From NCBI RefSeq assembly GCF_002970915.1, contig NZ_CP027190.1:1612001-1676000 (forward strand): a DNA stretch of 64,000 nt, read 5' to 3'. Below the pieces are notes generated by a model. That model had not been told where the DNA came from and ran no database searches. It saw only the letters and a program-made list of their open reading frames with translations. This document shows, piece by piece, positions 49,851-64,000 of the stretch (positions are counted from its first letter, which is position 1; each line of letters opens with the position of its first letter). The DNA is from Lactobacillus sp. CBA3605. GTDB taxonomy: Bacteria; Bacillota; Bacilli; Lactobacillales; Lactobacillaceae. The translations under genes were made by a program, and so were the position numbers.

Positions 49851-51608
49851 ATGGTTAAAACAGTTGAAGCATCAGTTGCAATGTTAAAAGTTTTGGAAGC
49901 ATGGGGCGTTAAGCAGATTTATGGGTACGCTGGTGGGTCGTTTAATTCGACGATGCATGCACTCGATGTTGAACAAGCCCGCTTGCACTATGTTCAAGTG
50001 CGCCATGAACAGGTCGGCGCCTTAGCGGCAGCAGCGGCAGCGAAGTTGAATGGTCAGATTGGGGTCGCTTTTGGGTCTGCGGGTCCAGGCGCTGTCAATC
50101 TTTTGAATGGCCTCTATGATGCTAAAGAAGATCATGTACCAGTGTTGGCTTTGGTGGGTCAAGTGGCCCATACCAACATGAATTATGATTATTTTCAAGA
50201 GTTTGCAGAAGAACCCATGTTTAGTGACGTGGCGGTCTTTAATCGGACTGTCATGACGGCTGAAAGCTTACCATATGTGGTCGATAAGGCGATTCGGACT
50301 GCCTACAAGGAAAAGGGCGTGGCGGTTGTCACGATTCCCAATGATTTTGGTTACGTGGAAATTCCTGATGTGGCCTACGATTCAGCGAGTGTACCAGCGA
50401 ATACGGTTACAGCGCCAGCCATTGCCGATGACCAGATTGAGCACGTACTCGCTTTAATCAAAGCGGCCAAGTATCCGGTCTTTCACGTGGGTCAAGGAAC
50501 TCGCGGTGCCAGTGAAGCCATGATGCAGTTGGCCGACCGGTTACAAGTTCCGATTATTATCACCGGCTTGGCTAAAGGTGTGATTCCAGATAGTTTTGCT
50601 GGGAACATGGGCAGTGCTTATCGTGCGGCCTCAAAAGCGGCGGATGAGTTAATGGCAATCACGGACTTAGTGGTTTCCGTTGGGGCCGATTACTCTTTTG
50701 CACAAATCATGTATACCACGCATACGTTTAAGTATGTCCAGATTGAACTGGATGCGGCTAAGTTTGGGCGGCATCATCACTTAGATTACGGGATTCATGG
50801 CGATGCGAAAGCCTTCATTAAACGCGCTTTGACGTTAGGTGAACCAGCGGCACCATCGCCGTATTATCAAGCTGCCCAAGCCGATATGGCTGACTGGCAA
50901 CGTTATCTGCAACGGCTTAGTGAACGGACCACTGATCCATTGGAATATGAACAAGTTTATCAAGAAATCAATCGTGTGGCAGCTGACGATGCCATCTTCT
51001 CAATGGATGTTGGGGACAATACGATTAATAGTTTCCGCTTCTTAAAGATGAATCCGAAACAAAAATTGTTAACTTCAGCGTTATTTGCAACGATGGGTGC
51101 CGGGGTACCAGGGGCGATTGCAGCGAAGTTAAGTTATCCAGAGCGTCAAGCGTTCAATATTGCAGGTGACGGAGCCTTTTCAATGGTCATGCAGGATTTA
51201 TTGACTGAAGTGAAGTATCATTTGCCAATCTTTAATATTGTGACATCGAATCAAACGTTGAACTTTATTAAGTCGGAACAAGAAGATGTTCCGCAGCCTT
51301 ATTATGGGATTGACTTAATTGGCGCCGATTTTGCCATGATTGCAGAAGGCATGGGTGTTAAGGGGATTAAAGTCGAACGATTTGACCAACTGCATGCGGC
51401 CTTTGAAACAGCGATGGCAGAACTTAAAGCCGGCCGTCCGGTGCTCATTGATGCCAAGATTACTGCTAAACGGGGCTTGCCAGTTGAAATCTTGGACGTT
51501 GATCCAGTAAAGACTTCGGCAGCGTCGGTAGCCGACTTTAAGCACACTTATGATGCTGAAGAATTACAACCACTGTCCGCTTATTTTAGTAAATTTGGGG
51601 TTAAATAA
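49851..51608 (+). CDS. pox: Pyruvate oxidase
   Basis: A 585-residue ThDP/FAD enzyme that converts pyruvate, phosphate and O2 into acetyl phosphate, CO2 and H2O2. The N-terminal ThDP-binding Glu region lies in LHYVQVRHEQVGALAAAAAAKL, and the ThDP/Mg motif GDGAFSMVMQDLLTEVKYHLPIFNIVTSNQ spans about residues 437-466. It is slightly shorter than the well-studied 603-residue L. plantarum PoxB, so it may be a paralogue. A cre box in the promoter fits growth-phase-dependent aerobic acetate production. The RBS AAGAAGG is eight bases before the ATG. Confidence 0.93.
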   Translation: MVKTVEASVAMLKVLEAWGVKQIYGYAGGSFNSTMHALDVEQARLHYVQVRHEQVGALAAAAAAKLNGQIGVAFGSAGPGAVNLLNGLYDAKEDHVPVLALVGQVAHTNMNYDYFQEFAEEPMFSDVAVFNRTVMTAESLPYVVDKAIRTAYKEKGVAVVTIPNDFGYVEIPDVAYDSASVPANTVTAPAIADDQIEHVLALIKAAKYPVFHVGQGTRGASEAMMQLADRLQVPIIITGLAKGVIPDSFAGNMGSAYRAASKAADELMAITDLVVSVGADYSFAQIMYTTHTFKYVQIELDAAKFGRHHHLDYGIHGDAKAFIKRALTLGEPAAPSPYYQAAQADMADWQRYLQRLSERTTDPLEYEQVYQEINRVAADDAIFSMDVGDNTINSFRFLKMNPKQKLLTSALFATMGAGVPGAIAAKLSYPERQAFNIAGDGAFSMVMQDLLTEVKYHLPIFNIVTSNQTLNFIKSEQEDVPQPYYGIDLIGADFAMIAEGMGVKGIKVERFDQLHAAFETAMAELKAGRPVLIDAKITAKRGLPVEILDVDPVKTSAASVADFKHTYDAEELQPLSAYFSKFGVK

Positions 51609-51627
51609 TTTTAATTACGTCGGATAG

Positions 51628-51673
51628 ACTGGTAACTATCAATCTTTAACGATTGATGGTTATCAGTTTTTTT
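51628..51673 (+). terminator. Terminator of pox
   Basis: ACTGGTAACTATCAATC pairs imperfectly with GATTGATGGTTATCAGT and is followed by T7. Confidence 0.88.
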
Positions 51674-51693
51674 GTCTTATTTAAGAAAAAAGC

Positions 51694-51755
51694 TTGCATT
51701 TACGTGCAAATGCACATATTATGGACTTACACGAATAAGTGCATTTGCACGTAAA
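51694..51755 (+). promoter_or_regulatory. MFS-marR promoter between two MarR operators
   Basis: TTGCAT (51694-51699), 17 bases and TATTAT (51717-51722). TTTACGTGCAAATGCAC (51699-51715) fills the spacer and its exact reverse complement GTGCATTTGCACGTAAA lies at 51739-51755. Each contains the near palindrome GTGCAAATGCAC, with centres 35 bp apart. Confidence 0.85.
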
Positions 51756-51772
51756 ACTAGGAGCAACTTTAA

Positions 51773-53125
51773 ATGACAAAAAAGCAACGCTTTATTTTGA
51801 CAATAACTTTATTAGTGGCCGTTTTTACCGCTTTATTGAATCAGACGGTGATGGTCACCGCATTACCGGTCATGATGCAACAATTTTCTATTAAACTAAC
51901 AACGGCTCAATGGTTAACGACGGGGTATGTCCTAGTCTTAGGAATCGCCACCCCGATTTCGGCATTATTATATGAAAGGTTCAGTACCCGCCATTTATTT
52001 ATCACCCTTATTATTAGTTTTATTGTGGCGACGTTAGTGGGGGCCAGTGGTGTTAACTTTGCGATGGTCCTGATTGCACGCCTATGTCAGGCCGCAATGG
52101 GTGGGATTTTAATGACCTTTAGTCAGATTGCATTGTTAGGATTATATTCACCACAACAACGTGGCACGATTTTGGGATTATTTTCAATGGTCGTTTCGGC
52201 GGGCCCGGCGATTGGTCCCACCTTTGCTGGTATCTTATTAGCCCATTTTACTTGGCATAGTTTATTTTGGGTCGTCTTAGTCGTGATGGTGCTGATTTTA
52301 GGGCTAGGCTGGCGATTTTTACCCGATTTGCAAGCTGGTCAACCAATTAAATTCGATTGGGTGGCCATTGGCCTATTGGTGACCGGAATGGGCTTACTGT
52401 TGATTGGAATTAGTACGTTACAAACGAATTGGCAATGGGGCCTGGGCTTATTATTAGTTGGTGTTTTTTTGACGGCAGGATTTGTACGCCAACAGTTAAG
52501 CACGACACAGCCTATTTTAAATTTACGATTATTCAAAAATGCAACGTTTACTCGGATGACGTTAGCGGTGATGTTAACGTTCGCAGTGATGATGGGTACC
52601 GAAACGTTGTTACCAGTTTTGTTAGAAACGCATCGGGGGTTAAGTAGTATGCAGACTGGACTGGTTATGTTACCCGGGGCACTAGCTAATGTTATTTTGG
52701 CGCCATTAGTCGGCCGCTGGTATGATCAGCATGGCCTTGAAAAAATCATGATGATTGGGTTAGCGTTAACCCTTGTTGCCAGTGGTTGGTTTTATTTCAT
52801 TACTGCTGAAACTCCGGTCGTTTTTATCATTTTAGCCTATGCATTACGGATGAGTGGGAGTGCCATGATTATCTCAGTCACGGTCGCCCAAGCCTTGGCG
52901 CCGTTAGCCGGGCGTGAGTTGAGCCATGGAACGGCCTTAAATAACGCGGTCCGTCAAATCGCAGGTTCGCTGGGGAATACTGTCCTTATCTGGGCGGTCA
53001 ATAGTCAAGCTAACTTTAATGGTGGTTTTCAGTTGGCTATGGGTGTCACGATTGTAGCAGCGCTGGGATTAGTTTGGTTAGGGATTAGCGAGATTCGAGC
53101 AATAAAAGCCGTTGCAAATCAATAA
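51773..53125 (+). CDS. MFS multidrug exporter, DHA2 family
   Basis: A 450-residue transporter with about 13-14 predicted membrane segments. TALPVMMQQFSIKLTTAQWLTTGYVL and the motif LYERFSTRHLF are typical of DHA2 proton antiporters of the LmrB/EmrB type. It probably expels toxic organic compounds. The marR gene 49 bases downstream is likely in the same transcript, controlled by the two operators upstream. AGGAG lies upstream of ATG 51773. Confidence 0.9.
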   Translation: MTKKQRFILTITLLVAVFTALLNQTVMVTALPVMMQQFSIKLTTAQWLTTGYVLVLGIATPISALLYERFSTRHLFITLIISFIVATLVGASGVNFAMVLIARLCQAAMGGILMTFSQIALLGLYSPQQRGTILGLFSMVVSAGPAIGPTFAGILLAHFTWHSLFWVVLVVMVLILGLGWRFLPDLQAGQPIKFDWVAIGLLVTGMGLLLIGISTLQTNWQWGLGLLLVGVFLTAGFVRQQLSTTQPILNLRLFKNATFTRMTLAVMLTFAVMMGTETLLPVLLETHRGLSSMQTGLVMLPGALANVILAPLVGRWYDQHGLEKIMMIGLALTLVASGWFYFITAETPVVFIILAYALRMSGSAMIISVTVAQALAPLAGRELSHGTALNNAVRQIAGSLGNTVLIWAVNSQANFNGGFQLAMGVTIVAALGLVWLGISEIRAIKAVANQ

Positions 53126-53174
53126 GCCCCCCGGTATGATAAAGACAATAAGTCTAGCAATCGAGGTAGTTGAA

Positions 53175-53600
53175 ATGGATTTTGAAAAAAATATTGCGAT
53201 TATTAATCGGGCCACCCGTCAACATTTGGCGCAACAACTCAAACCATATACGTTAACGGAGAGCAACTTTATGTTAGTCTTACGGGTCTGTGAACGGCCG
53301 GGTATTTCGCAAGAGGCATTGAATCAAGATATTTACCGGGAACATAGTATTGTGACGAAGATGGTCAAGCGCTTAATTACGCTGGGATGGTTACAACGTG
53401 TGACGGATCCACAAGATCGTCGCCGGACGCAGCTTTTTCCAACAACGCAAGCGCAAACGGCTTATCCTGAAATCAAAGCGCTACTTGCTGAAACCAATCA
53501 GTGGTTAGTGGCCGAGCTGACATCGACGGAGCAAGCGGCATTGGCACCAGCCTTGCAACGGCTGGCTAAAAGTAAGCGACCAGCTAAAACTGAATCATAA
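53175..53600 (+). CDS. MarR family regulator
   Basis: The 141-residue regulator has the winged-helix core GISQEALNQDIYREHSIVTKMVKRLITLGWLQRVTDPQDRRRTQLFPT, with the DxRxxxxxLT-type wing. MarR proteins lose DNA affinity on binding phenolic or lipophilic ligands. GAGG lies before ATG 53175; upstream ATG and TTG options lack an RBS. Position after the MFS gene and the twin operators before it indicate autorepression of the two-gene unit. Confidence 0.88.
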   Translation: MDFEKNIAIINRATRQHLAQQLKPYTLTESNFMLVLRVCERPGISQEALNQDIYREHSIVTKMVKRLITLGWLQRVTDPQDRRRTQLFPTTQAQTAYPEIKALLAETNQWLVAELTSTEQAALAPALQRLAKSKRPAKTES

Positions 53601-53609
53601 TTGAGGTTT

Positions 53610-53654
53610 AAACAGTTACGTTAGCCAGTGGGTGGCGCGCGTAACTGTTTTTTT
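53610..53654 (+). terminator. Terminator of the MFS-marR operon
   Basis: AAACAGTTACG pairs with CGTAACTGTTT, followed by T7. Confidence 0.85.
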
Positions 53655-53823
53655 GATGTAAGCCCATTTATTTGAGCATTAGACGTTACTTATCAAAAAA
53701 ATTCGTTGGGTAGCCGATGAATTGACTTAGGAATTTCACAGTTTAGATACTTTTGCCGGGTATGTTAGAACTTGTTCAGAAACAAGCAGTCTCAATACTT
53801 ATTTTTTAAGGAGGTTACAAGCC

Positions 53824-55305
53824 GTGAATTTCTTTAAACGCGCATGGCTTAATTTAACAGCGAAGAAGGGGCGTTCAGTCCTATTAATTCTGGTCACATC
53901 AGCTATTATGTTATTTGTATTGGCCGGTCTTTTGATACGAAATGCCGCTGATACGGCAACGAGTAACGCGAAGCAGAGTGTCGGGGCAACCGTCACCTTG
54001 TCTGCTAATCGCGACGCTGCTTTTAAGAAGATGCGGCGCGCATCAACGAGTAAAAAGAGTAAGCCGACTTTAACGACTTCGCCCGTTAAGTTAAGTGATG
54101 CCAAAAAGATTGCGAAGCTTAATAATATTGCCAGCTATTCGGCAACGGTTTCGACATCTGCAAATGCCAAAGGGTTTGATGCTATCTCGACGACTAGCAG
54201 CAGTCAAAGTGGTGGTATGAAAGGAATGGGTGGTGCAAGTACCACCAGTTCCGGCGATATTGCGATTTCTGGGGTAACATCAACCAGTGCAACTTCTGAT
54301 TTTGAAGATAGCACGAGCAAAATTACAAAAGGCCGCGGAATTACAACGGCCGATGAAGGCACGAATAATGTCGTCATTGAAAGTGAACTTGCCAAAGAGG
54401 ATAGCTTGAGTGTGGGTGATACCATTAAACTTAAGGCAACCACTGGGAGCAAGACGACTTATACGATGAAGATTGTTGGGGTCTATAAGGCTAGTTCTAG
54501 CACGACAACTGCCCAAGGTCCAGATGCAACTGATCCATCGAACAGTGTCTACACGTCATACACCTTTGCAAATACGGTCAAAGGTGCGAAATATAAGAAC
54601 ACAGCTGATTCGATTACGTTTAACGTCTCGGATCCAGCTAAAGTGAGTGCAGTTAAAACAGCAGGTAAACAATTAATCAATACCTCGAAATATTCGTTGA
54701 CGACGGATGATAGTAGCTATCAAACAGTTAAGTCTTCAATGAACAACGTGAAGTCCTTTGCAGATAAAATTGTCTGGTTAGTGGCGATTGCCGGGACCAT
54801 TATTTTGGCCTTAATCGTTATCTTGATGATTCGAGAACGCCGTTATGAGATTGGTGTCTTACTATCCTTAGGCGAAGCACGCTGGAAGATTGTGGCGCAG
54901 TTCTTTGTTGAAATGGTGATGGTCTTAGTTGTTTCGATTGTCATCGCCGGGATTGGCGGTAAGTTCGTAGGCAATCAATTAGGCCAACAACTGGTTTCTC
55001 AACAAACGACCACTGCGACAACGAGTTCTACTAGTACTCAGACGGGGCAACCTGGTGGGACTGGCGGTGGCGCACCTAGTGGTACCACTGGTGGCAGTAA
55101 GCCTAGCGGTAACATGGGTGGCAACCCAGGCAGTAGTACGACGAGTGCAACGGCCTCACAAAAACAAACTGAATTAGATATCAGTGTGACGATCATGGAC
55201 TTAGTTGAACTAGGTGGTTTTGGCTTAGCAATTATGTTCTTATCCATTATGTTGGCGTCTGGTGGCATTCTCCGGCTACAACCGAAGAAAGTCCTGATTG
55301 AATAG
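53824..55305 (+). CDS. ABC transporter permease of FtsX/MacB type
   Basis: The 493-residue protein has an N-terminal membrane helix (VLLILVTSAIMLFVLAGLLI), a Ser/Thr-rich extracellular domain to about residue 315, then three helices (about 318-340, 370-395, 462-485). IRERRYEIGVLLSLGE is the typical coupling segment. The loop between the last two helices has a Gly/Ser/Thr/Pro stretch of about 40 residues, unusual for the family. It pairs with the next gene. Translation starts at GTG 53824 with AGGAGG nine bases upstream. Confidence 0.88.
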   Translation: MNFFKRAWLNLTAKKGRSVLLILVTSAIMLFVLAGLLIRNAADTATSNAKQSVGATVTLSANRDAAFKKMRRASTSKKSKPTLTTSPVKLSDAKKIAKLNNIASYSATVSTSANAKGFDAISTTSSSQSGGMKGMGGASTTSSGDIAISGVTSTSATSDFEDSTSKITKGRGITTADEGTNNVVIESELAKEDSLSVGDTIKLKATTGSKTTYTMKIVGVYKASSSTTTAQGPDATDPSNSVYTSYTFANTVKGAKYKNTADSITFNVSDPAKVSAVKTAGKQLINTSKYSLTTDDSSYQTVKSSMNNVKSFADKIVWLVAIAGTIILALIVILMIRERRYEIGVLLSLGEARWKIVAQFFVEMVMVLVVSIVIAGIGGKFVGNQLGQQLVSQQTTTATTSSTSTQTGQPGGTGGGAPSGTTGGSKPSGNMGGNPGSSTTSATASQKQTELDISVTIMDLVELGGFGLAIMFLSIMLASGGILRLQPKKVLIE

Positions 55306-55318
55306 AGAGGAGTTACTC

Positions 55319-55978
55319 ATGTTAAAAGCAAATGATATTGGTTATTGGTATGATCGCCAAGCAAACAGCCTTTTCGAGCATGTGAATCTCGAATTCAAGG
55401 CGGGCAATTCTTATGCGATTGTTGGTCAGAGTGGTTCTGGTAAGACGACATTTTTATCATTATTAGCCGGGCTAGATAAACCTCGGGCCGGTCAAATCGA
55501 ATTAAACGGTGAACCGATTAATAAAATCGGTTTAACGGCCTATCGAAAATCGCATGTTGCAATCGTATTTCAAGCCTATAATCTGTTTACCTACATGTCA
55601 CCATTAAACAACTTGTTAACGGCGATGGCGATTACGGCTTCTAGTCATCGTGGTGACAAGCAGTATGCGGCGGATATGTTGCATAAGCTTGGTATTACTG
55701 ATGACCAAATGAAGAAAAATGTGCAGAAGTTATCTGGTGGGCAACAACAACGGGTCGCCATTGCGCGAACGATGGTCTGCGATGCCAAAGTGGTGGTAGC
55801 GGATGAACCAACCGGTAACTTAGATGAAGAAAACACGAAATATGTGATTGATCAATTTCAAAAGATTGCGCATGAACAACAAAAATGTGTGATTATTGTG
55901 ACGCATGAACCGGACGTGGCGCGCGCTTGCGACCATGCTTATCGGTTAGCCAGTCATGAGTTTACACTAGAGGCATAA
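55319..55978 (+). CDS. ABC transporter ATP-binding protein
   Basis: A 219-residue LolD/MacB-type ATPase: Walker A GQSGSGKTT near residues 36-44, Q-loop VFQAYNLF, signature LSGGQQQRVA, Walker B VVVADEP and H-loop VTHE. GAGGAG lies nine bases before ATG 55319, a few bases after the permease stop, so the two genes form an operon. Substrate unknown: MacB-type pairs export peptides or take part in envelope stress. Confidence 0.93.
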   Translation: MLKANDIGYWYDRQANSLFEHVNLEFKAGNSYAIVGQSGSGKTTFLSLLAGLDKPRAGQIELNGEPINKIGLTAYRKSHVAIVFQAYNLFTYMSPLNNLLTAMAITASSHRGDKQYAADMLHKLGITDDQMKKNVQKLSGGQQQRVAIARTMVCDAKVVVADEPTGNLDEENTKYVIDQFQKIAHEQQKCVIIVTHEPDVARACDHAYRLASHEFTLEA

Positions 55979-55995
55979 GTGTTTTGATAGTTCGG

Positions 55996-56031
55996 ACGGC
56001 CGTAGACATTACTTGTCGCGGCCGTTTTTTT
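55996..56031 (+). terminator. Terminator of the ABC operon
   Basis: ACGGCCG and CGGCCGT arms are followed by T7. Confidence 0.85.
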
Positions 56032-56061
56032 ATTGGTGGTAGCCGTAAGGACAGCAATAAT

Positions 56062-56155
56062 GTTACAAACCATTACGAAATCCTTAGTTTATTACAAGTG
56101 ACCCAGCAAACTGTAACCTGCCATTTATCCGCATGCAACATGTAGCCGGTATACT
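56062..56155 (+). promoter_or_regulatory. LysM-regulon promoter, copy 1
   Basis: GTTACA (56062), N4, ATTACG (56072), N13, ATTACA (56091-56096), then 53 bases to TATACT (56150-56155). GTAA also lies at position 17-20 of the 53-base gap. The -35 region is poor, so an activator is expected. The same layout occurs before the other two LysM genes. Confidence 0.75.
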
Positions 56156-56244
56156 AATTAGTGTTGATTGGTTAACGCCAGTCGAAACTTAATGACTGAT
56201 AACTTATAAAAAACAATTAGAAAATACAGGAGTGAATTAATTTA

Positions 56245-56805
56245 ATGAAGGTTAGAAATATTGTACTATCAACGGTGGCCACTTTAGGATTGTTTGCAGT
56301 TAGTAATACGGTAGCTAATGCCGATACGGTGACAGTTAAGTCTGGTGACACCGTTGCTAAAATTGCTAGTGATAACAACACAACGGTCAGTGCCATCAAG
56401 CAAGCCAATGGCTTAAGCAACGTTAACTTAATCTACGTTGGTGATCAACTTGAAGTTAATGGCACAACAACTTCAGCTACGACTAGTACGAGTTCAACCA
56501 CTGACACAACCAGCACAACGACTGCTAAGACTAGCGCTACGACCGCCACAACTAGTACAACTGCTACAACAACTACTAGTTCTAGCGACAGTGCCGCTAA
56601 AGCTTGGATTGCTAACAAAGAATCTGGTGGCTCATACACTGCTTCAAATGGCAATTACTATGGTAAATATCAATTAAGCAAGTCTTACTTGAATGGTGAC
56701 TATTCAGCCGCTAACCAAGAAAAAGTTGCAAATAGCTACGTTAGTTCCCGCTATGGGTCATGGAGTGCGGCTAAAGCACACTGGTTAGCTAACGGCTGGT
56801 ACTAA
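56245..56805 (+). CDS. Secreted LysM protein with transglycosylase-like C-terminus, copy 1
   Basis: A 186-residue exported protein. Signal peptide to about residue 27 (VANA-DT), one LysM domain (VTVKSGDTVAKIASDNN to DQLEVN, about 27-72), a Thr/Ser linker of about 45 residues, and a C-terminal domain with AWIANKESGGSY, NGNYYGKYQLSKSYL and a WY end. The Glu in KESGG matches the catalytic Glu of Rpf/transglycosylase-like proteins. It binds peptidoglycan and probably trims it. The RBS GGAG is 12 bases before the ATG, the same spacing as in both paralogues. Confidence 0.92.
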   Translation: MKVRNIVLSTVATLGLFAVSNTVANADTVTVKSGDTVAKIASDNNTTVSAIKQANGLSNVNLIYVGDQLEVNGTTTSATTSTSSTTDTTSTTTAKTSATTATTSTTATTTTSSSDSAAKAWIANKESGGSYTASNGNYYGKYQLSKSYLNGDYSAANQEKVANSYVSSRYGSWSAAKAHWLANGWY

Positions 56806-56820
56806 ACTTAAATTAAGTCT

Positions 56821-56854
56821 AAAAAAGGAAATTCCACATGGAATTTCCTTTTTT
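56821..56854 (+). terminator. Terminator of LysM gene copy 1
   Basis: AAAAAAGGAAATTCC and GGAATTTCCTTTTTT form a perfect 15-bp stem with a four-base loop. Confidence 0.93.
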
Positions 56855-56949
56855 AATGGGTTTAAAGCTTGGTTATTGACGAAATAGTTGCAGATTGGGG
56901 CACAATTGAGGTATTATGCAGCCGTAAAATAAAAGCAGGAGGTGTTAGC

Positions 56950-57291
56950 ATGGCGATAACTTTTGCTCATCAACTAACCAAAATTCGGCAGCAACAACAC
57001 TTGTCCCAAGCCCAACTGGCTCGTCAATTAACATTACCACGTTCGGTTATCACGCAATGGGAGCAGGGACAAACAACCCCAGAACTAGATCAATTAATTA
57101 AGTTAGCAGCGTTGTTACAGGTTAGTTTGGATGACTTGGTTTTAGGCGATTCGGCTAATCGTCGACTGTCGACGTTGCCTCAGCTGACGACCAATGGTAG
57201 TTGGGAATGGCTGGTTCGTTATTGGTGGTTAGGCCTGTCATTAGTGGGGCTAATCCTGTGGGTATTAATGAGCTTTTCACACGTACGCTGA
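56950..57291 (+). CDS. XRE-type regulator with C-terminal membrane helix
   Basis: A 113-residue protein. A Cro/CI helix-turn-helix occupies residues about 8-62 (LSQAQLARQLTLPRSVITQWEQGQTTPELDQL), and a single membrane helix (WWLGLSLVGLILWVLMSF) ends the chain. Such one-piece regulators may respond to envelope state. GGAGG lies eight bases before ATG 56950. It sits between two of the LysM genes; its targets are unknown, and it is a candidate regulator for them. Confidence 0.8.
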   Translation: MAITFAHQLTKIRQQQHLSQAQLARQLTLPRSVITQWEQGQTTPELDQLIKLAALLQVSLDDLVLGDSANRRLSTLPQLTTNGSWEWLVRYWWLGLSLVGLILWVLMSFSHVR

Positions 57292-57353
57292 GTCAACAAC
57301 CTTAACCGGCGTTCGATAAGCATTCAAAATCAAAGCCTAAAACTAAGGTAAAT

Positions 57354-57380
57354 AAAAAGACCATCATGACGATGGTCTTT
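57354..57380. terminator. Bidirectional terminator between XRE and LysM copy 2
   Basis: AAAGACCATC and GATGGTCTTT form a short stem with a five-base loop between convergent genes. Confidence 0.8.
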
Positions 57381-57398
57381 AAGCATTGAATTTAAATT

Positions 57399-58076
57399 TT
57401 AGTACCAACCGTTAGCTTGTGAATGAGCTTTAGCAGCAGCCCATGAGCCGTAACGGGAAGCAACATAACTGTTAGCAACTTTTTCTTGGTTAGCAGCTGA
57501 GTAATCACCATTTAAGTATGATTTGCTTAGTTGATATTTACCATAGTAGTTACCGTTAGTTGCGCTGTATGAACCACCGGATTCTTTGTTAGCAATCCAA
57601 GCCTTGGCTGAACCTTCACTGCCATTAGTTGTGGTAGTAGAGGTACTAGTCGTTGATGCAGCTGGTTTAGTTGTCGTTGTTGCAACTGAACTGCTAGTAG
57701 CGGCTGCTTTAGGTGCAGTGGTTACAGTCGTGTTGTTAGTTGTGTTAGCTGATGATGACACTGCTGCTTGGTAATGGTTACTTTGAGTCGTTGCAGCTGT
57801 GGTTGTAGTTGTATTAGCAACTGGCGTGGTCGTTGAAGTAGTGGTAGTCGTTGCAGTACCATTAACTTCAAGTTGGTCACCAACGAAAATTAAGTTAACG
57901 TTGCTTAAGTTGTTGGCGTTCTTGATTGCATCAACACTGGTGTTGTAAGTGTTCGCAATTTCGGCAACGGTGTCACCAGCTTTAACAGTAACGGTGGCGG
58001 CGTCAGCAGCGGTTGTCGTAGCAGCAAATAAAGCTAAAGCTGCGGCAGTTGATAATGCAAGGTTCTTGATTTTCAT
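57399..58076 (-). CDS. Secreted LysM protein with transglycosylase-like C-terminus, copy 2
   Basis: A 225-residue paralogue of copy 1 with the longest Thr/Ala/Ser linker of the three (about 95 residues). The order is signal peptide (ALALFAATTTAADA), LysM (TVKAGDTVAEIANTYN), linker, then AWIANKESGGSY...KAHSQANGWY. The linker is a likely site for glycosylation. I start at ATG 58076 because the GGAG-to-ATG spacing of 12 bases matches both paralogues; the ATG nine bases upstream would leave only three. Confidence 0.92.
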   Translation of the reverse strand: MKIKNLALSTAAALALFAATTTAADAATVTVKAGDTVAEIANTYNTSVDAIKNANNLSNVNLIFVGDQLEVNGTATTTTTSTTTPVANTTTTTAATTQSNHYQAAVSSSANTTNNTTVTTAPKAAATSSSVATTTTKPAASTTSTSTTTTNGSEGSAKAWIANKESGGSYSATNGNYYGKYQLSKSYLNGDYSAANQEKVANSYVASRYGSWAAAKAHSQANGWY

Positions 58077-58181
58077 ATTAGTCATACACTCCTATAAGTT
58101 TAAATGGGGTCGATTGTCTTATCTAAATATCTCGCGTTAGTCAATGGAAACTAATGTCGCCTTAACTAATTAACAATGACT

Positions 58182-58275
58182 AGTATACCGAGCGAGTATT
58201 GCAACACAATAAACAGGAGGTTACGTTTTAGGCCAGTTATTGTAATATAACGCGTTTTTTGTAATGAATTGTAAT
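58182..58275 (-). promoter_or_regulatory. LysM-regulon promoter, copy 2
   Basis: On the plus strand TGTAAT (58241), N13, TGTAAT (58260), N4, TGTAAT (58270-58275). On the minus strand 53 bases separate the near half-site from TATACT (58187-58182), with GTAAC at position 17-21 of the gap. Confidence 0.8.
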
Positions 58276-58436
58276 ATTTGGTGATGGTTTCTGGAAATAA
58301 ATGTGACGTTTTCATGAATATGACCAAATTAAGCGGCAATTAAGACTGAAAATGGCTGATTAATTGATTAAGGACTAAAACTAAAAGCAACGACGATAAT
58401 CATCTTTAGATTATAGGTAAGTTTAATTGACGATAT

Positions 58437-58473
58437 AAAGGCTCATCGCAACAAAAATGCGATGAGCCTTTTA
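58437..58473. terminator. Hairpin after the MFS gene
   Basis: AAAGGCTCATCGCA and TGCGATGAGCCTTTT form a perfect stem with a seven-base loop. It lies downstream of the minus-strand MFS gene. Confidence 0.8.
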
Positions 58474-58528
58474 AAATGTTTCGATGATAAGACTTAGTTA
58501 AACCGACGTATTTCATTTAAAGATTGAC

Positions 58529-59710
58529 TTAGCTGCGGACCTTAGTTTGCCGACGATTATCAATTAGGGTATAGAGACCGGTACCAACTGCGAGTATGAC
58601 GAAGCCCCAACCACACATAGTCAAAACGAAGGCCGGTTGGTCGTTGCCAAGTAGATTAGCGGCCCCGTTAACTAAGGTTGGTGATAAGAACGCTCCTAAG
58701 TTAATCCCCATTAACATAATGGATGTCGATAAGTTTTCAGAATGTGCGGGTGCAATTTGAGCAACTCGGAGGAATCCTTGGGGAAAGACCCAACCAAAGA
58801 AGCTACCAGCAATGATGACGCCGACAAACAGCAAAGCTACATTACTGGCAGTTGCGACAATGAGAAAGCCCAGGGCAATCCCGATTAGAGCTACCGGTAA
58901 TATATAGTTACCTAGGCGCTGGCTCAACTTGCCAAAGATGGCACTGGCAACCATTGAAGCGGCTCCCATAACGGCTAAAATAGTTGAAGCCATGGCAGGG
59001 GTCGTCAGTTGTTGGGTGGTGACAAAACTGGCTAATTTAATTGTCATCATCATAAACATCCCAAAAATAATTAGCATGAGTCCGGCGAGCGCTAAAACGT
59101 GACTATTAGTGGTTTGCTTAGGTCTGCTTGTTTTGACGGCTATCTTAGGTGTCGGAATTTTAACCAATAAACCAAATAATAGTAGTGGAATTAGGGCAAT
59201 TAAGTAGCCAGTAAAGACGGTCTTCCAACCAGCTAACACGAGCAAGCTAAGCAATAGGCCAAACCCAGCGTTGCCTAAATTTTGGGCGGTATTTTGATAA
59301 CCTAGCATATCCGCTAACTCTTGATCATGGTAGAAGTTGTACATTAGACTAACTGAGAAGGGATTAAATAAGCCAATCCCACAGCCCATGACAAAGCGAG
59401 CTAGGATAATAATGACGTAATTACTAATTAGGACCGGCACTAAACCGCCAATCAGATATAAAAACAACCCCAACATAATGGTTCGCTTAACTCCTAATTT
59501 TTGTGCAATCCAAGTTGAAAACATAATGAGCAATAAGACGCCTAGATTTGGCAAGGTGGCAATCATCTCAACTTGGGCCGTGGTCTGGTCAGTGAAGGTT
59601 TTAGCCATCAAGGGATTTGCAATTGCGATTGATGGGGCGGTCATTGCCAAGATGGACAGTGACAGTAAAGCGAGTTTGAAAGGCCAGCTGTGCGTGTTTT
59701 GTTTAGGCAT
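58529..59710 (-). CDS. MFS transporter, 12 TM
   Basis: A 393-residue major facilitator with 12 predicted helices. The loop after helix 2 (WIAQKLGVKRTIMLGLFLY) is the family A motif region. It may import or export the substrate of the adjacent FAD reductase. The FAD gene stop (59716-59718) lies just before its ATG at 59710; GGAGG ten bases upstream lies inside the FAD gene end, so the two are translationally coupled. Confidence 0.88.
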   Translation of the reverse strand: MPKQNTHSWPFKLALLSLSILAMTAPSIAIANPLMAKTFTDQTTAQVEMIATLPNLGVLLLIMFSTWIAQKLGVKRTIMLGLFLYLIGGLVPVLISNYVIIILARFVMGCGIGLFNPFSVSLMYNFYHDQELADMLGYQNTAQNLGNAGFGLLLSLLVLAGWKTVFTGYLIALIPLLLFGLLVKIPTPKIAVKTSRPKQTTNSHVLALAGLMLIIFGMFMMMTIKLASFVTTQQLTTPAMASTILAVMGAASMVASAIFGKLSQRLGNYILPVALIGIALGFLIVATASNVALLFVGVIIAGSFFGWVFPQGFLRVAQIAPAHSENLSTSIMLMGINLGAFLSPTLVNGAANLLGNDQPAFVLTMCGWGFVILAVGTGLYTLIDNRRQTKVRS

Positions 59711-59715
59711 GTTTG

Positions 59716-61221
59716 TCACGCCTCCTCAGTGGTATTTTGCGCAATGAATTTGGCTGCGCTAGTGCCAGCTAGGCGGCCGGAGGTCCAAGCAAATCCCGAT
59801 GCTAGTCCTTCATAGGCAGGATAGCTATGGCCTTCGTAATACCCACCGGCATTGGCACCTCCGGTAAATAACCCAGGAATTGGTCGGAATTGTTGATCTA
59901 AAACGCGTAAGTTTTCATCGACGCGAACACCACCAACCGTGCCTAAGTAAGCGACTTGCGCTGTAAAGGCATAGAAAGGTCCTACATTAACTGGATAAAC
60001 TAGTGAAGCGGCAGATTTACTAAAGGTGGAATCAGTTTTTGTTGTTACCGCTTGATTATAAGTTTTAACTGCCGCAATTAAAGTCGCTGGGACCATCCCA
60101 ACTTTTGTGGCTAGTTCGGTGATTGTGGCGCCTTTAAAGGCTGTGCCAGCTGCGACTGAAGCGTTGGCTAAAGCAGTGAAATCACCGGGTTCCGTATCTG
60201 CACCGGGTCCAGCTTGCGAGACTTCTAATGCACCACCATTTTTGGTGAAGTTATCTAGTGTTGCTTGGTCCACGACGAAGTAATATTGGCCCCCAACCGA
60301 CCAGCCAGCGTTGGCCCAGTTGACCGTATCATAGACAACATCTTCATTGGTAAAGCGTTGTCCGGTCCGATTGACCCAGAATAAGGGCGTTAATAGGAGT
60401 TGCGTTAAAGCGGTGTGTGAAAAGCCCGCCAGATGTTCGGCTGAAGTTTTTTGAGTGACCGTTGATTTAGCTAGTTGGGCCGCATGGATTAATGCGGTTC
60501 CGTCAATATCTTCGGCACCAGCTTTGACCATTGCTTGTAGCCCTTCGCCCATATTGGGGACGCCTAAAGTCCGTAAAGCTGTGGTATGCATTGTACGAGC
60601 AACTTTCTTACGATCACCACCAAAGCCACCAGTTGCGATGACAGTTGCTTGGGCATCAACATTGAAGGTCATCCCAGCGGCATCCGTTGCCGAAACGCCA
60701 ATGATTTTACCATCGGCAGTTTGACGTAGGTCAGTTAAGGTGACACCAAATTTGAATTGAACGCTTTCATTTTCAAGCTTGGCTTGAATCCGCGCATAAC
60801 TTTCAGGTTTGTTTTGATACATATGGTAAGCGCCACCTTGATAGGGGTTATCACGATGGGCAAATTGGGTCGTTTTAGCGTTATCGTTTAATTGAATTGC
60901 CATGCCAAGATTTTCTAACCAAGTTAACGTATCGGCGGCCGTATCCACGATATGATGGATTAACGGGCCATTAGCAAGATTATGATTATAAGTGGTTAAC
61001 TGATTGACGGCTTCGGCTTTTGATAACTGAAGGCCTTTGGCACGTTGTTCTTTAGAGTCAATTGCAAAAAAGCCACTAGAAATCTTGGTGTTACCACCAA
61101 TTTGGGCCTGCTTTTCTAAGACTAGGACCTGAAGACCTTGTTCAGCGGCTGCATGGGCGGCTGCCAGCCCGGTCCCACCGGCACCAGCGACGATGACATC
61201 GGTTTTAATAGTTGTTGTCAT
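59716..61221 (-). CDS. FAD-dependent fumarate-reductase-like flavoprotein
   Basis: The 501-residue protein has an N-terminal FAD-binding AGAGGTGLAAAHAAAEQG, then GGNTKISSGFFA, ATGGFGGDRKK and a C-terminal GGANAGGYYEGHSYPAYEGLASGFAWTSG, placing it in the FAD-binding_2 (fumarate reductase/ketosteroid dehydrogenase-like) group. There is no heme-binding CxxCH, FMN-binding domain or signal peptide. Members in lactobacilli reduce hydroxycinnamates, urocanate or similar enoates; the substrate is unknown. It forms an operon with the MFS gene, divergent from an AraC regulator. Confidence 0.85.
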   Translation of the reverse strand: MTTTIKTDVIVAGAGGTGLAAAHAAAEQGLQVLVLEKQAQIGGNTKISSGFFAIDSKEQRAKGLQLSKAEAVNQLTTYNHNLANGPLIHHIVDTAADTLTWLENLGMAIQLNDNAKTTQFAHRDNPYQGGAYHMYQNKPESYARIQAKLENESVQFKFGVTLTDLRQTADGKIIGVSATDAAGMTFNVDAQATVIATGGFGGDRKKVARTMHTTALRTLGVPNMGEGLQAMVKAGAEDIDGTALIHAAQLAKSTVTQKTSAEHLAGFSHTALTQLLLTPLFWVNRTGQRFTNEDVVYDTVNWANAGWSVGGQYYFVVDQATLDNFTKNGGALEVSQAGPGADTEPGDFTALANASVAAGTAFKGATITELATKVGMVPATLIAAVKTYNQAVTTKTDSTFSKSAASLVYPVNVGPFYAFTAQVAYLGTVGGVRVDENLRVLDQQFRPIPGLFTGGANAGGYYEGHSYPAYEGLASGFAWTSGRLAGTSAAKFIAQNTTEEA

Positions 61222-61339
61222 AATGAATCACTCCTAATTGAATTTGATTCCATTATAAAGTGAATAAATGTACAATATAACTAAGTGAAGTATCTTTTTT
61301 CTGATGAAAATATATCTTTTAAAATTGAGGAGAGCGCTG

Positions 61340-62218
61340 ATGAGTCGAAATTATCAAAGTAAGCAACCGATTAAAATACCCGGAATATACAATCATACCG
61401 GGGTTAAAAAGGTAACGCCAGCGTCTCAGCAAACAGTGTTATTGATCATTGAAAGTTTAACAGCCAGTGTATGTGAAATTGACCAACAAGTGTTGCCGTT
61501 AAATCCGCAAGATATTATTTTAGTCCAGCAAGCCACGCAAATTAAGGTGAGCGCACAACAGGATTTGGTTAAATGTCGGACATTTACGGCTAGCGTGACG
61601 TTTCCTAATCCACTAAATATGACTGTGGTCGGTGATAATCCATTAATTCACGATTTAATGAATGATGCGAGCACAGCCAGTCAATATGTGGTCTTTCATC
61701 ATTTGAAAAATCGATTAAGTCATACTTATTGTAATTTATTAGCGCAAATGGATCAGCAGGATGCGGATCGCTACTTAAATTTTGAACGAAACCAAGTCTT
61801 TAGCTTATTATTAACTGAACTGTTACGACAACATCGCGAGACGGTCTCGTTAGTGGATTCTCAGTTTCCGGTTCAAGCGATTCGGCATGCCGGTCGGGAG
61901 ACGCAATCGGGCGCTATTTTTACTTATCTATCGCGCCAGATTGCGACGGTGACCTTAACCAAAGCTGCTGCTCATTTTGGTTATCAGCCGAATTACTTTT
62001 CGCGGCTCTGTCGCACGCTATTTGATGACTCTTTTTCGGCAGTAAAAACTCGGATTCGAATGGAAATGGCTGGTCGAATGCTAAGTTTGACGACGAAGGG
62101 GATTACGGAAATCAGTTTTGAACTGGGGTATAAGAATGTGACGAGTTTTTACCAAGCTTTTTCGCAGGCTCAAGGGATGACACCGACTCAATTTCGACAA
62201 ACTGGTCGTGAAAATTAA
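61340..62218 (+). CDS. AraC family regulator
   Basis: A 292-residue regulator with a C-terminal double helix-turn-helix (TLTKAAAHFGYQPNYFSRLCRTLF and ITEISFELGYKNVTSFYQAFSQAQGMTPTQFR). The N-terminal half has a cupin-like effector region. It is divergent from the FAD reductase-MFS pair and likely activates it in the presence of substrate. GAGGAGA lies six bases before ATG 61340; the ATG at 61304 lacks an RBS. Confidence 0.88.
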   Translation: MSRNYQSKQPIKIPGIYNHTGVKKVTPASQQTVLLIIESLTASVCEIDQQVLPLNPQDIILVQQATQIKVSAQQDLVKCRTFTASVTFPNPLNMTVVGDNPLIHDLMNDASTASQYVVFHHLKNRLSHTYCNLLAQMDQQDADRYLNFERNQVFSLLLTELLRQHRETVSLVDSQFPVQAIRHAGRETQSGAIFTYLSRQIATVTLTKAAAHFGYQPNYFSRLCRTLFDDSFSAVKTRIRMEMAGRMLSLTTKGITEISFELGYKNVTSFYQAFSQAQGMTPTQFRQTGREN

Positions 62219-62223
62219 CAGAT

Positions 62224-62272
62224 AAAAAGCACATTACCAATCCAAGTTGAACTTGGACCGGTAATGTGCTTT
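62224..62272. terminator. Bidirectional terminator between araC and LysM copy 3
   Basis: AAAGCACATTACC pairs with GGTAATGTGCTTT; an inner TCCAAGTT/AACTTGGA stem continues it. It separates convergent genes. Confidence 0.92.
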
Positions 62273-62293
62273 GCTAAAAGTTGAATTTAAGCT

Positions 62294-62905
62294 TTAGTAC
62301 CAACCAGTTGAGAGCCAATGTGACTTAGCTTGCGACCATGAGCCGTATCGTGAACTAACGTAGCTATTAGCAACGCGTTCTTGGTTAGCAGCTGAGTAGT
62401 CACCATTTAAGTAAGAAGCACTTAGTTGGTATTTACCAATGTATTGGCCATTACGGGCACCGTATGAACCGCCAGATTCTTTGTTAGCAATCCAAGCTTT
62501 AGCAGAACTATCAGAAGAACTCGTGTTACTGCTGGTGTTAGTCGCAGTTGTCGTGGTGCTCTGAGTAGTTGCGGCTGGGGTGCTAGTGCTATGTGTAGTC
62601 GTTGTACTTTGACTAGGTGTAGCAGTTGTTGTTGATTGGGTCTGAGTCGTAGTACTTGCGGCTGGTGTAGTGGTAGCAGTCGTCGTATCGTTAACTTCAA
62701 GCTTTTGACCAACGAAGATCAAGTTAACGTTGGTTAATTGGTTTGCTTTTTCGATGGCGGCAACGGTCGTATCATTGTCGTTAGCAATTGCTGAGACGGT
62801 GTCGCCAGCTTTAACCGTTACGGTTGCGGCTTGAGCGGTGGCGCCAATAGCAAAAAGACCTGATGCGGCTGCTGCAGTAGATAATAAAACATTCTTAATT
62901 TTCAT
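62294..62905 (-). CDS. Secreted LysM protein with transglycosylase-like C-terminus, copy 3
   Basis: A 203-residue paralogue with signal peptide, LysM domain (TVKAGDTVSAIANDND), a Thr/Ser/Gln linker of about 70 residues, and the C-terminal AWIANKESGGSYGARNGQYIGKYQL domain ending WLSTGWY. GGAG is 12 bases before ATG 62905. It is controlled by the third copy of the conserved promoter. The three proteins differ mainly in linker length, which probably sets how far the enzymatic domain reaches from the LysM anchor. Confidence 0.92.
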   Translation of the reverse strand: MKIKNVLLSTAAAASGLFAIGATAQAATVTVKAGDTVSAIANDNDTTVAAIEKANQLTNVNLIFVGQKLEVNDTTTATTTPAASTTTQTQSTTTATPSQSTTTTHSTSTPAATTQSTTTTATNTSSNTSSSDSSAKAWIANKESGGSYGARNGQYIGKYQLSASYLNGDYSAANQERVANSYVSSRYGSWSQAKSHWLSTGWY

Positions 62906-62984
62906 AAGTAATGGTCACTCCTATTTTTTTAGTCCGAATTTTTGCTTGGCCCCGAAACACATCCCAAGCACTTTATTAACTCAT

Positions 62985-63078
62985 AGTATAGCCGTCAATT
63001 GTAACAAACGAATAGCAATCATTTTACGAATTGGCCGTGTGTTTGTAATATAAGCCGTTTTTTGTAATCTTTTGTAAT
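62985..63078 (-). promoter_or_regulatory. LysM-regulon promoter, copy 3
   Basis: On the plus strand TGTAAT (63044), N13, TGTAAT (63063), N4, TGTAAT (63073-63078). On the minus strand a 53-base gap leads to TATACT (62990-62985), with GTAA at position 17-20 of the gap. Confidence 0.8.
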
Positions 63079-63109
63079 ATTAAGGGCTAATCGTGCAATT
63101 AATTTTAGA

Positions 63110-63484
63110 TTAATCAGCTTTCAGCTTGATTAACCAACGTTTTTTTTCAGCTTTACCATTTAATAAGTCGGGATGAGTTAAAACGGCTTGATTGAGTGAT
63201 TTTAAGTGACCACTGACGGGAAGGGTTAATGTTTTGGTTGCTTTAGTGCCAATAATGGTTACTAAGTCATCACCAGCTGCCAAGTGTTGACCAACAGCGG
63301 CATAGGTGACAGCGGTAATGGTCCCCAATTCAGCTTGACCAGCTGCAGTTAAGCCAAGGACTAGCCGTTGCCGTGATTTTAACTGTAACCACAGGTCGCC
63401 ATAAGCCATCAGTTCGTGGCGTTCTTGGTAATCAGTTTTGTACCATAAGTAGACGGTCTTCCAAACGGGTAAATGTTCTGGCAT
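63110..63484 (-). CDS. GcvH-like lipoyl carrier protein
   Basis: A 124-residue protein that aligns with glycine cleavage H proteins: VLGLTAAGQAELG matches the conserved VGIT...LG segment, VGQHLAAGDDL matches VGATVSAGDD, and PVSGHLKSLNQAVLTHPDLLN matches the conserved C-terminal half. Lys in IGTKATK sits at the lipoylated position. ATG 63484 has GGAGG seven bases upstream. No gcvP, gcvT or lipoate ligase is adjacent, so its carrier role is probably outside glycine cleavage, as for GcvH-like proteins in other Firmicutes. Confidence 0.8.
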   Translation of the reverse strand: MPEHLPVWKTVYLWYKTDYQERHELMAYGDLWLQLKSRQRLVLGLTAAGQAELGTITAVTYAAVGQHLAAGDDLVTIIGTKATKTLTLPVSGHLKSLNQAVLTHPDLLNGKAEKKRWLIKLKAD

Positions 63485-63529
63485 GGTGTAACCTCCGATT
63501 TCTAATACGTTTAAGTATAACATGCTTGC

Positions 63530-64000
63530 CTAGTCAGCCAATAAGCGGTTCATCAGTTGCAGATGATGCATTAACATTAATTTTTTGATTGGTCCCAGAC
63601 CGGGAAACTTAGGTTGGTGCGCATAGGCCACTAATTCAGCTAAGGCCGGAGTTGCATTAAGGCCAGTTAAATGTGTTGGCGCCCACGTAATCAACTTAGT
63701 GAGGGCCTCAAAAAACTTTTGCTTTTGACCGCCACGCTGCTCATTACTATCAGAAACAAAATGGTGAATTCGTAAGCAACCAGTCGGCGTCACATAAATC
63801 ACGTGGATGGCAATCGCACGAGCGGGAAAGCCTTTATCGAAGTAAACGCTGCCGACTATCGAATAATCACCAAAGGCTTGATAGCCCAAGGGTAATTGAT
63901 GCCAATTGGCAGGGGCGAAATAGTCATCGGTTAGCTGGGCATAGTCGGCGACATGGGGCCAAAAGGTGAGCGAATCAGTTAACAAAATTGACCGTGAGCC
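63530..64000 (-). CDS. Hypothetical protein, N-terminus beyond the window
   Basis: An open frame of at least 156 codons reading toward the left, with no stop up to the right edge, so the start probably lies outside. The visible part is soluble, with His-rich segments (ARAIAIHVIYVTPTGCLRIHHF) and C-terminal LGPIKKLMLMHHLQLMNRLLAD. It is not recognised. It lies 46 bases upstream of the GcvH-like gene and probably shares its transcript. Confidence 0.5.
   Translation of the reverse strand, partial: GSRSILLTDSLTFWPHVADYAQLTDDYFAPANWHQLPLGYQAFGDYSIVGSVYFDKGFPARAIAIHVIYVTPTGCLRIHHFVSDSNEQRGGQKQKFFEALTKLITWAPTHLTGLNATPALAELVAYAHQPKFPGLGPIKKLMLMHHLQLMNRLLAD

Follow-up and report, generated by a model that had tools for sequence, protein, structure and literature searches.

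Three Apf genes with a common promoter layout

A promoter layout that recurs in front of three genes of Lactobacillus sp. CBA3605 was analysed, starting from a stretch of 64,000 nucleotides (contig NZ_CP027190.1, positions 1,612,001 to 1,676,000), which is called the window below; places elsewhere in the genome are given as C1 coordinates. The products of the three genes belong to the aggregation-promoting-factor (Apf) family (NF052398, 214-246 bits, cut-off 170). The initial annotation had called them LysM/transglycosylase paralogues. LysM is indeed found by Pfam, as the sole domain above cut-off in all three proteins, but the lytic-transglycosylase family PF06737 was unmatched and the C-terminus is instead the NCBIfam Apf C-terminal domain. 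The L. plantarum proteins Lp_0302, Lp_3014 and Lp_3015 have been assigned to PF06737 (PMC3533731).

Each gene is preceded, in its own orientation, by three half-sites with spacers of 4 and 13 nt (the distal array), then by exactly 53 nt and a TATACT -10 box, with GTAA at positions 17-20 of the gap, all of which agrees with the initial annotation (Table 1). A search of the window for ATTACA-N4-ATTACA-N13-ATTACA with up to three mismatches gave three matches against 0.14 expected, and none of 100 shuffled sequences had three or more. The spacing, first described as identical, is 53 nt for all three window genes, but it is 52 nt at C1:911385 and 52-54 nt across the family. Likewise, the intervening sequence does differ in the 53-nt gap, where only 24-26 of 53 positions are identical, but little in the N13 spacers of genes 2 and 3, which agree at 11 of 13 positions. 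An RNA leader as the explanation of the window promoters was dropped because of the position of the motif, upstream of the -10 box; Rfam gave no match at gathering score in positions 50000-64000.

Table 1. Features of the three window promoters and of a non-coding RNA (ncRNA)-like locus elsewhere in the genome. Positions refer to the window unless a contig is named.
Feature	Position	Strand	Description or basis
Gene 1 distal array	56062..56096	+	GTTACA-N4-ATTACG-N13-ATTACA; sequence read-out
Gene 1 proximal 11-bp array	56112..56140	+	TGTAAC (-38), ATTTAT (-27, weak), TGCAACA (-16); offset scan and sequence
Gene 1 -10 box	56150..56155	+	TATACT
Gene 1	56245..56805	+	Apf family, LysM and Apf C-terminal domain, 186 aa
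Gene 2 distal array	58241..58275	-	ATTACA-N4-ATTACA-N13-ATTACA
Gene 2 proximal array	58197..58225	-	CGTAAC (-38), GTTTAT (-27, weak), TGCAATA (-16)
Gene 2 -10 box	58182..58187	-	TATACT
Gene 2	57399..58085	-	Apf family, 228 aa
Gene 3 distal array	63044..63078	-	ATTACA-N4-ATTACA-N13-ATTACA
Gene 3 proximal array	63000..63028	-	CGTAAA (-38), TGCTAT (-27), TGTTACA (-16)
Gene 3 -10 box	62985..62990	-	TATACT
Gene 3	62294..62905	-	Apf family, 203 aa
ncRNA-like locus, own copy (L244)	G000:C1:950180-950450	-	Tandem 11-bp WalR-type array, ~200-250 nt, terminator-like end

The triple motif in the genome and in the family

In the genome (2.55 Mb), the triple motif had nine matches with at most three mismatches, compared with five for a reversed control. 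The best five, with at most two mismatches, are the three window sites, C1:911385 and C1:2104157, and all lie before Apf-type paralogues; the other four have three mismatches each. The paralogues other than gene 1 are 64-73% identical to it. The pair RTTACR-N4-RTTACR had 12 matches including the five known sites (control 2). Comparison of the five-paralogue alignment with the genome yielded 11 matches, which are pieces of the five genes, a sixth gene at C1:1069875 and two LysM genes of other kinds. The sixth gene encodes the Apf C-terminal domain and no LysM.

A strict form of the pattern, RTTACR-N4-RTTACR-N13-RTTACR, was then run against 397 family genomes, sampled evenly from a larger group, and occurred at 99 sites in 40 of them, with none in the reversed control. 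The motif-positive genomes comprise all 21 of the own genus (taken as Lactiplantibacillus) and 19 others in four genera, one of which is probably Liquorilactobacillus, as one site is identical to that of L. cacaonum. Downstream of all 99 sites there is a match to the Apf model (worst E 1.4e-38), found in any forward frame of a stretch of ~1.1-1.5 kb in most cases, so that the count does not speak of intact frames. A first count had found an Apf match in 95 of 100 contexts, the other five being truncated where the stretch ended, and was repeated for all 99 places. Thus, the sites are not at random positions, and their specificity for cell-wall genes, which the initial annotation had implied, is supported. 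TATACT follows 52-54 nt downstream in 98 of the 99 places (53 nt in 69, 52 in 24 and 54 in 5), and TACACT in the remaining one. GTAA-N33-TATACT is present in 91 places and the N34 form in 4, while 4 lack one of the two elements. In these strict places, conservation of TATACT follows from the anchoring, and that of the distal TTAC columns from the search pattern itself.

A class-level draw of 398 genomes, three of them from the own family, contained the five own sites and two in one other genome (control 0). In a set of loci named by genus, for which 78 of 346 matching stretches were kept, all 28 Lactiplantibacillus loci have the layout with at most two mismatches and TATACT at 53 nt. Some Ligilactobacillus and Liquorilactobacillus loci of this set carry variants of it. 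Upstream rearrangement was seen in the loci inspected from Levilactobacillus and Lentilactobacillus; the few read by eye keep half-sites near -38 and -16, ahead of a possible -10 box.

A proximal array in the place of the -35 element

A second series of half-sites, TGTWAH-like and on the coding strand, has its starts 38, 27 and 16 nt ahead of TATACT; its period is 11 bp, and it occupies the expected position of the -35 element. This register was first spotted by eye at a promoter at C1:950351; the later scan tried all offsets. The scan used 22 representatives, chosen greedily at less than 70% identity over -60..-1 from those 94 of 100 contexts that had an Apf match and TATACT at 52-54 nt. Among 105 forward offsets, the top three for TGTWAH were -16 (5.23 of 6), -38 (4.95) and -27 (4.32), with a mean of 2.68 and a standard deviation of 0.69. 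Among 261 spaced triples, the best was that with spacing 11 from -38 (14.5; next 11.05). The three tandem half-sites end 9-10 nt before the -10 box. The GTAA that recurs in the gap is the outer part of this second array, a point missed when it was first annotated.

The best TTGACA match in the 22 promoters scored 3.0 of 6, compared with 2.99 in shuffled sequence, in agreement with the poor -35 regions of the initial annotation, and an extended -10 TG was present in none of them. Identity between the representatives is 0.82 in the core columns, 0.37 in the other columns and 0.36 in the 40 nt that follow the -10 box, although the contrast between 0.82 and 0.37 is overstated, as the core columns were picked because they had already been seen to be conserved. 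The layout is kept in promoters whose other columns differ to this extent, which supports the proposal that it is selected rather than the product of recent duplication.

The core promoter without the distal array

The core GTAA-N17-TGNNAC-N10-TATACT, with at most one mismatch, has seven matches in the genome. Five are the Apf promoters, one stands before the sixth gene (C1:1069875), where the distal triplet is absent, and one is on the minus strand at C1:950351. In this last promoter, four half-sites spaced in steps of exactly 11 bp (TGTAAT, TGTAAT, TGTCAC and TGCAAC) precede TATACT. They are followed by ~200 nt that end in a terminator-like hairpin, and an open reading frame that is SufC-like by eye lies ~0.5 kb further.

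The tandem triple TGTWAH-N5-TGTWAH-N5-TGTYAH was found 19 times in 16 of the 21 genomes of the genus (control 3). Fifteen of the matches represent the ncRNA-like locus (L366-L368, L371-L382), all with TATACT at +49. A conserved block follows in 14 of them, and the fifteenth (L368) was assigned by its promoter alone. The remaining four matches lie before a GH25 muramidase (one, by Pfam) and before a secreted protein (three; the one tested has a Big_6 domain). A similar run, TGTAAA-N5-TGTAAA-N5-TGATAC-N5-TGTTGC, precedes the own GH25-like gene at C1:109157, where the -10 box is poor. Rfam gave no match at the own ncRNA-like locus, either at gathering score or at E<=1. Alifold of the 14 aligned downstream stretches was weak (-15.2), and no conserved fold is claimed.

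Variant loci and neighbouring genes

Several side observations were made on loci of this type. In eight contexts (L110, L112, L151, L161, L169, L170, L171, L181) a site of the gene-2 type, ATTACAATTCATTACA, stands before a gene with an exchanged domain: in those eight ATTACAATTCATTACA contexts the LysM half is Apf-like and the C-terminus is different, ending like YNAQGM.AWAL. An apf gene with the same promoter is also plasmid-borne (L133, L193, L120, L179); 117 PLSDB records match, 111 of them over at least 80% of the query, and they come from Lactiplantibacillus (113), Lactobacillus (3) and Furfurilactobacillus (1). The plasmid site recurs identically in two genomes that belong to two other genera, G002 and G372. 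In one other genus, perhaps Ligilactobacillus to judge from similar variants, N13 includes an extra inverted TGTAAC/TGTAAT half-site (L121, L122, L123, L125). Within the window, the DNA between genes 1 and 2 encodes a small HTH_3 protein whose C-terminal part has a hydrophobic stretch (56950-57291, plus strand). A GcvH relative lies beside the third promoter (63110-63523, minus strand; Pfam GCV_H 55 bits, cut-off 22) and scores below the NCBIfam gcvH cut-offs.

WalR as the candidate regulator

The genome encodes seven OmpR-family regulators, whose reciprocal best matches were sought in 12 motif-positive genomes (two of the own genus and five from each of two other genera). Reciprocal orthologues in all 12 were found only for WalR and for a CovR/LisR-like regulator at C1:2436571. 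The PhoP-like regulator and three other OmpR-type proteins, with orthologues in 10, 6, 2 and 2 of the 12 genomes, are disfavoured. The PhoP-like one lacks a reciprocal orthologue in G163 and G254, of which G163 carries the point: one of the 75 regulator sequences (L328, one of the four of G254) was unreadable, and the absence in G254 alone is unsafe.

The WalR orthologue (L227) matches NF040534 with 437.1 bits (cut-off 340), and a C-terminal stretch of 23 residues is identical in the solved chains 2d1v (yycF) and 2hwv (VicR). We take this stretch to hold the recognition helix, and 2d1v to be from B. subtilis. The WalR box is TGTWAH-N5-TGTWAH in B. subtilis and S. aureus, and TGTWAHA-N4-TGTWAHA for VicR of S. 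mutans (PMC4168254). At the level of the half-site, the S. mutans consensus fits both arrays. Its seventh-position A is present in 21 of 22 representatives at the first distal half-site, 11 of 22 at the second and 19 of 22 at the third, and in 91% at the -16 site. Because of the orthologue distribution, the match of the C-terminal domain and the fit of the half-sites to the VicR consensus, WalR is the best candidate, among these OmpR-family proteins, for the regulator of these promoters. A variant WalR box, its N4 pair one base narrower than the known N5 box, or another factor had been considered at first. A WalR-like factor is supported, but the N4/N13 triplet would be only the distal, reverse part of the site, with a canonical 11-bp array nearer the -10 box; the original observation is confirmed and extended, and the predicted element becomes a composite operator of the WalR type, in which the proximal array has an 11-bp period.

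Matches to the plain box in the genome include places before the GH25-like gene, a LysM+NlpC/P60 gene (Pfam) and murA- and PstS-like genes (by eye). At C1:1929931 (L222), TTTACA-N5-TTTACA and a further TTTACA stand before the PstS-like gene (by eye), as expected for PhoP.

Proposed mode of action and alternative explanations

The sequence comparisons make it rather likely that the Apf surface proteins and one ncRNA-like locus form a small regulon under WalR (YycF/VicR), controlled through a composite operator. We infer that WalR is the protein involved and acts as an activator, that TATACT is where transcription begins and that both arrays co-operate. The proximal part would consist of the TGTWAH(A)-like half-sites, three in tandem on the coding strand, with positions counted from the T of TATACT. 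As these occupy the expected -35 place, phosphorylated WalR (WalR~P) would be positioned next to RNA polymerase at a lone TATACT, in the style of a PhoB-type class II promoter. The distal part, whose three half-sites are reverse-oriented and spaced by 10 and 19 bp, would recruit additional WalR and increase occupancy. The poor -35 element, together with the proximal array in its place, suggests activation through contact with the polymerase. It is a more speculative idea that the composite operator of Lactiplantibacillus is looped or wrapped and that the same promoter type on a conserved small RNA provides a post-transcriptional arm of the essential WalRK system.

In L. plantarum at pH 5, lp_0302, lp_0304 and lp_3014 are up (table values 3.20, 1.60 and 2.51) and lp_3050 has a value of 1.99 with an adjusted p of 0.21 (PMC7645587). 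These genes were likened to the paralogues described here by annotation (extracellular transglycosylase), not by orthology. For L. brevis, a single table of induced genes lists both GH25 lysins and aggregation promoting factors (PMC8419935).

Several observations weigh against control by WalR through such an operator. With at most two mismatches the core had 22 matches in the genome against 24 in the control, and with a loose -10 box 33 against 36, so that no wider regulon emerges. The plain box TGTWAH-N5-TGTWAH is not enriched either (27 against 26) and is useless alone. At C1:1263408 (LysM and NlpC/P60) and C1:414040-414603, the two LysM genes of other kinds, neither the distal triple nor the core was found. 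Single promoters are often one or two letters off TGTWAH, with a weak -27 site in genes 1 and 2, and the -16 half-site is nearly palindromic, its reverse reading being almost as good (offset -15, 5.0 of 6). The N4/N13 spacing of the distal array (10 and 19 bp), rather than N5, is noncanonical for WalR, and one base added to the B. subtilis spacer at yocH abolished binding (PMC4168254). The module from independent component analysis that holds the lp_ genes above and rises as the pH falls was assigned to Fur/LexA (PMC10886434). Finally, WalR sites of S. aureus are associated with activation when they lie upstream of the -35 element, and with repression when they lie between the -35 and -10 elements or downstream of them (PMC10746227). 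By this rule the distal array would fit activation, but the proximal one would not unless it replaces the -35 element.

The S. aureus rule also favours a different division of labour, in which WalR or another factor on the proximal array blocks the polymerase when demand is low, while activation comes from the distal array. This is improbable, since there is no -35 element better than shuffled sequence to cover and the unaided promoter should be weak. The two arrays might also belong to two regulators, WalR on the proximal one and a different protein on the distal one. They are opposite in orientation and differ in spacing (10/19 against 11 bp), and the core stands without the distal triplet at C1:1069875 and C1:950351; the distal half-sites, on the other hand, match TGTWAHA too, with the seventh A at two of three, and a second protein is considered unlikely.

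Another OmpR-family regulator might read the array instead, chiefly the CovR/LisR-like one. Its name is our own reading, with no NCBIfam model above cut-off among the 25 shown. It is as widespread as WalR, with orthologues of 82-100% identity in all 12 motif-positive genomes, and a VanR-like regulator is present in 11. Induction of similarly annotated genes at low pH would suit an acid-responsive system. However, the CovR consensus, ATTARA, is without the C of TTAC. The window half-sites have TTAC and not TTAR, although the 99 places were picked with a pattern demanding that C. The half-sites with their seventh base fit the WalR/VicR consensus. We regard this regulator as a doubtful candidate. 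Plain common descent, by which an ancestral promoter was kept in paralogues and orthologues without selection on its spacing, would suit the paralogy of the Apf genes and the similar N13 of genes 2 and 3. It is very improbable, as the layout persists where the other columns have diverged, a contrast sharpened by the choice of columns and representatives, and as the same core precedes the ncRNA-like locus, which is not an Apf gene.

Comparison with known systems

Neither an apf regulator nor this operator was found described in the literature on apf, on L. plantarum transglycosylases and on lactobacillus WalR/WalK/YycF, although many papers lay outside the reach of the search and this absence is not proof. 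If control by WalR is correct, it would provide a precise WalR operator and target set for the genus that includes L. plantarum, connect surface proteins induced by acid with a named regulator and add a possible WalR-controlled RNA. The rigid geometry of the two arrays would be a natural case for the study of activation without a -35 element.

The genes described here belong to the same family (NF052398) as the known Apf genes. The acid-responsive module IM-1 of L. plantarum holds lp_0302, lp_0304, lp_2809, lp_2810, lp_2845, lp_3014 and lp_3050, and resembles the present gene set in that genes annotated as extracellular transglycosylases, some with LysM, co-vary with a GH25 gene; it differs in its Fur/LexA annotation, and WalR is not mentioned in the accessible part of that paper (PMC10886434).

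The present promoters share with the WalR/VicR box the half-site, the seventh A, the 11-bp period of the proximal array, cell-wall targets and a regulator with the same C-terminal stretch. Unlike that box, they have three tandem half-sites reaching close to the -10 box, a reversed distal array with 10/19-bp spacing and a near-fixed geometry at each of the targets found. In class II promoters of the PhoB/PhoP type, tandem 11-bp boxes replace the -35 element. The proximal array resembles these in geometry, whereas the targets here are Apf genes and the PhoP-like regulator lacks the full orthologue distribution among the motif-positive genomes.

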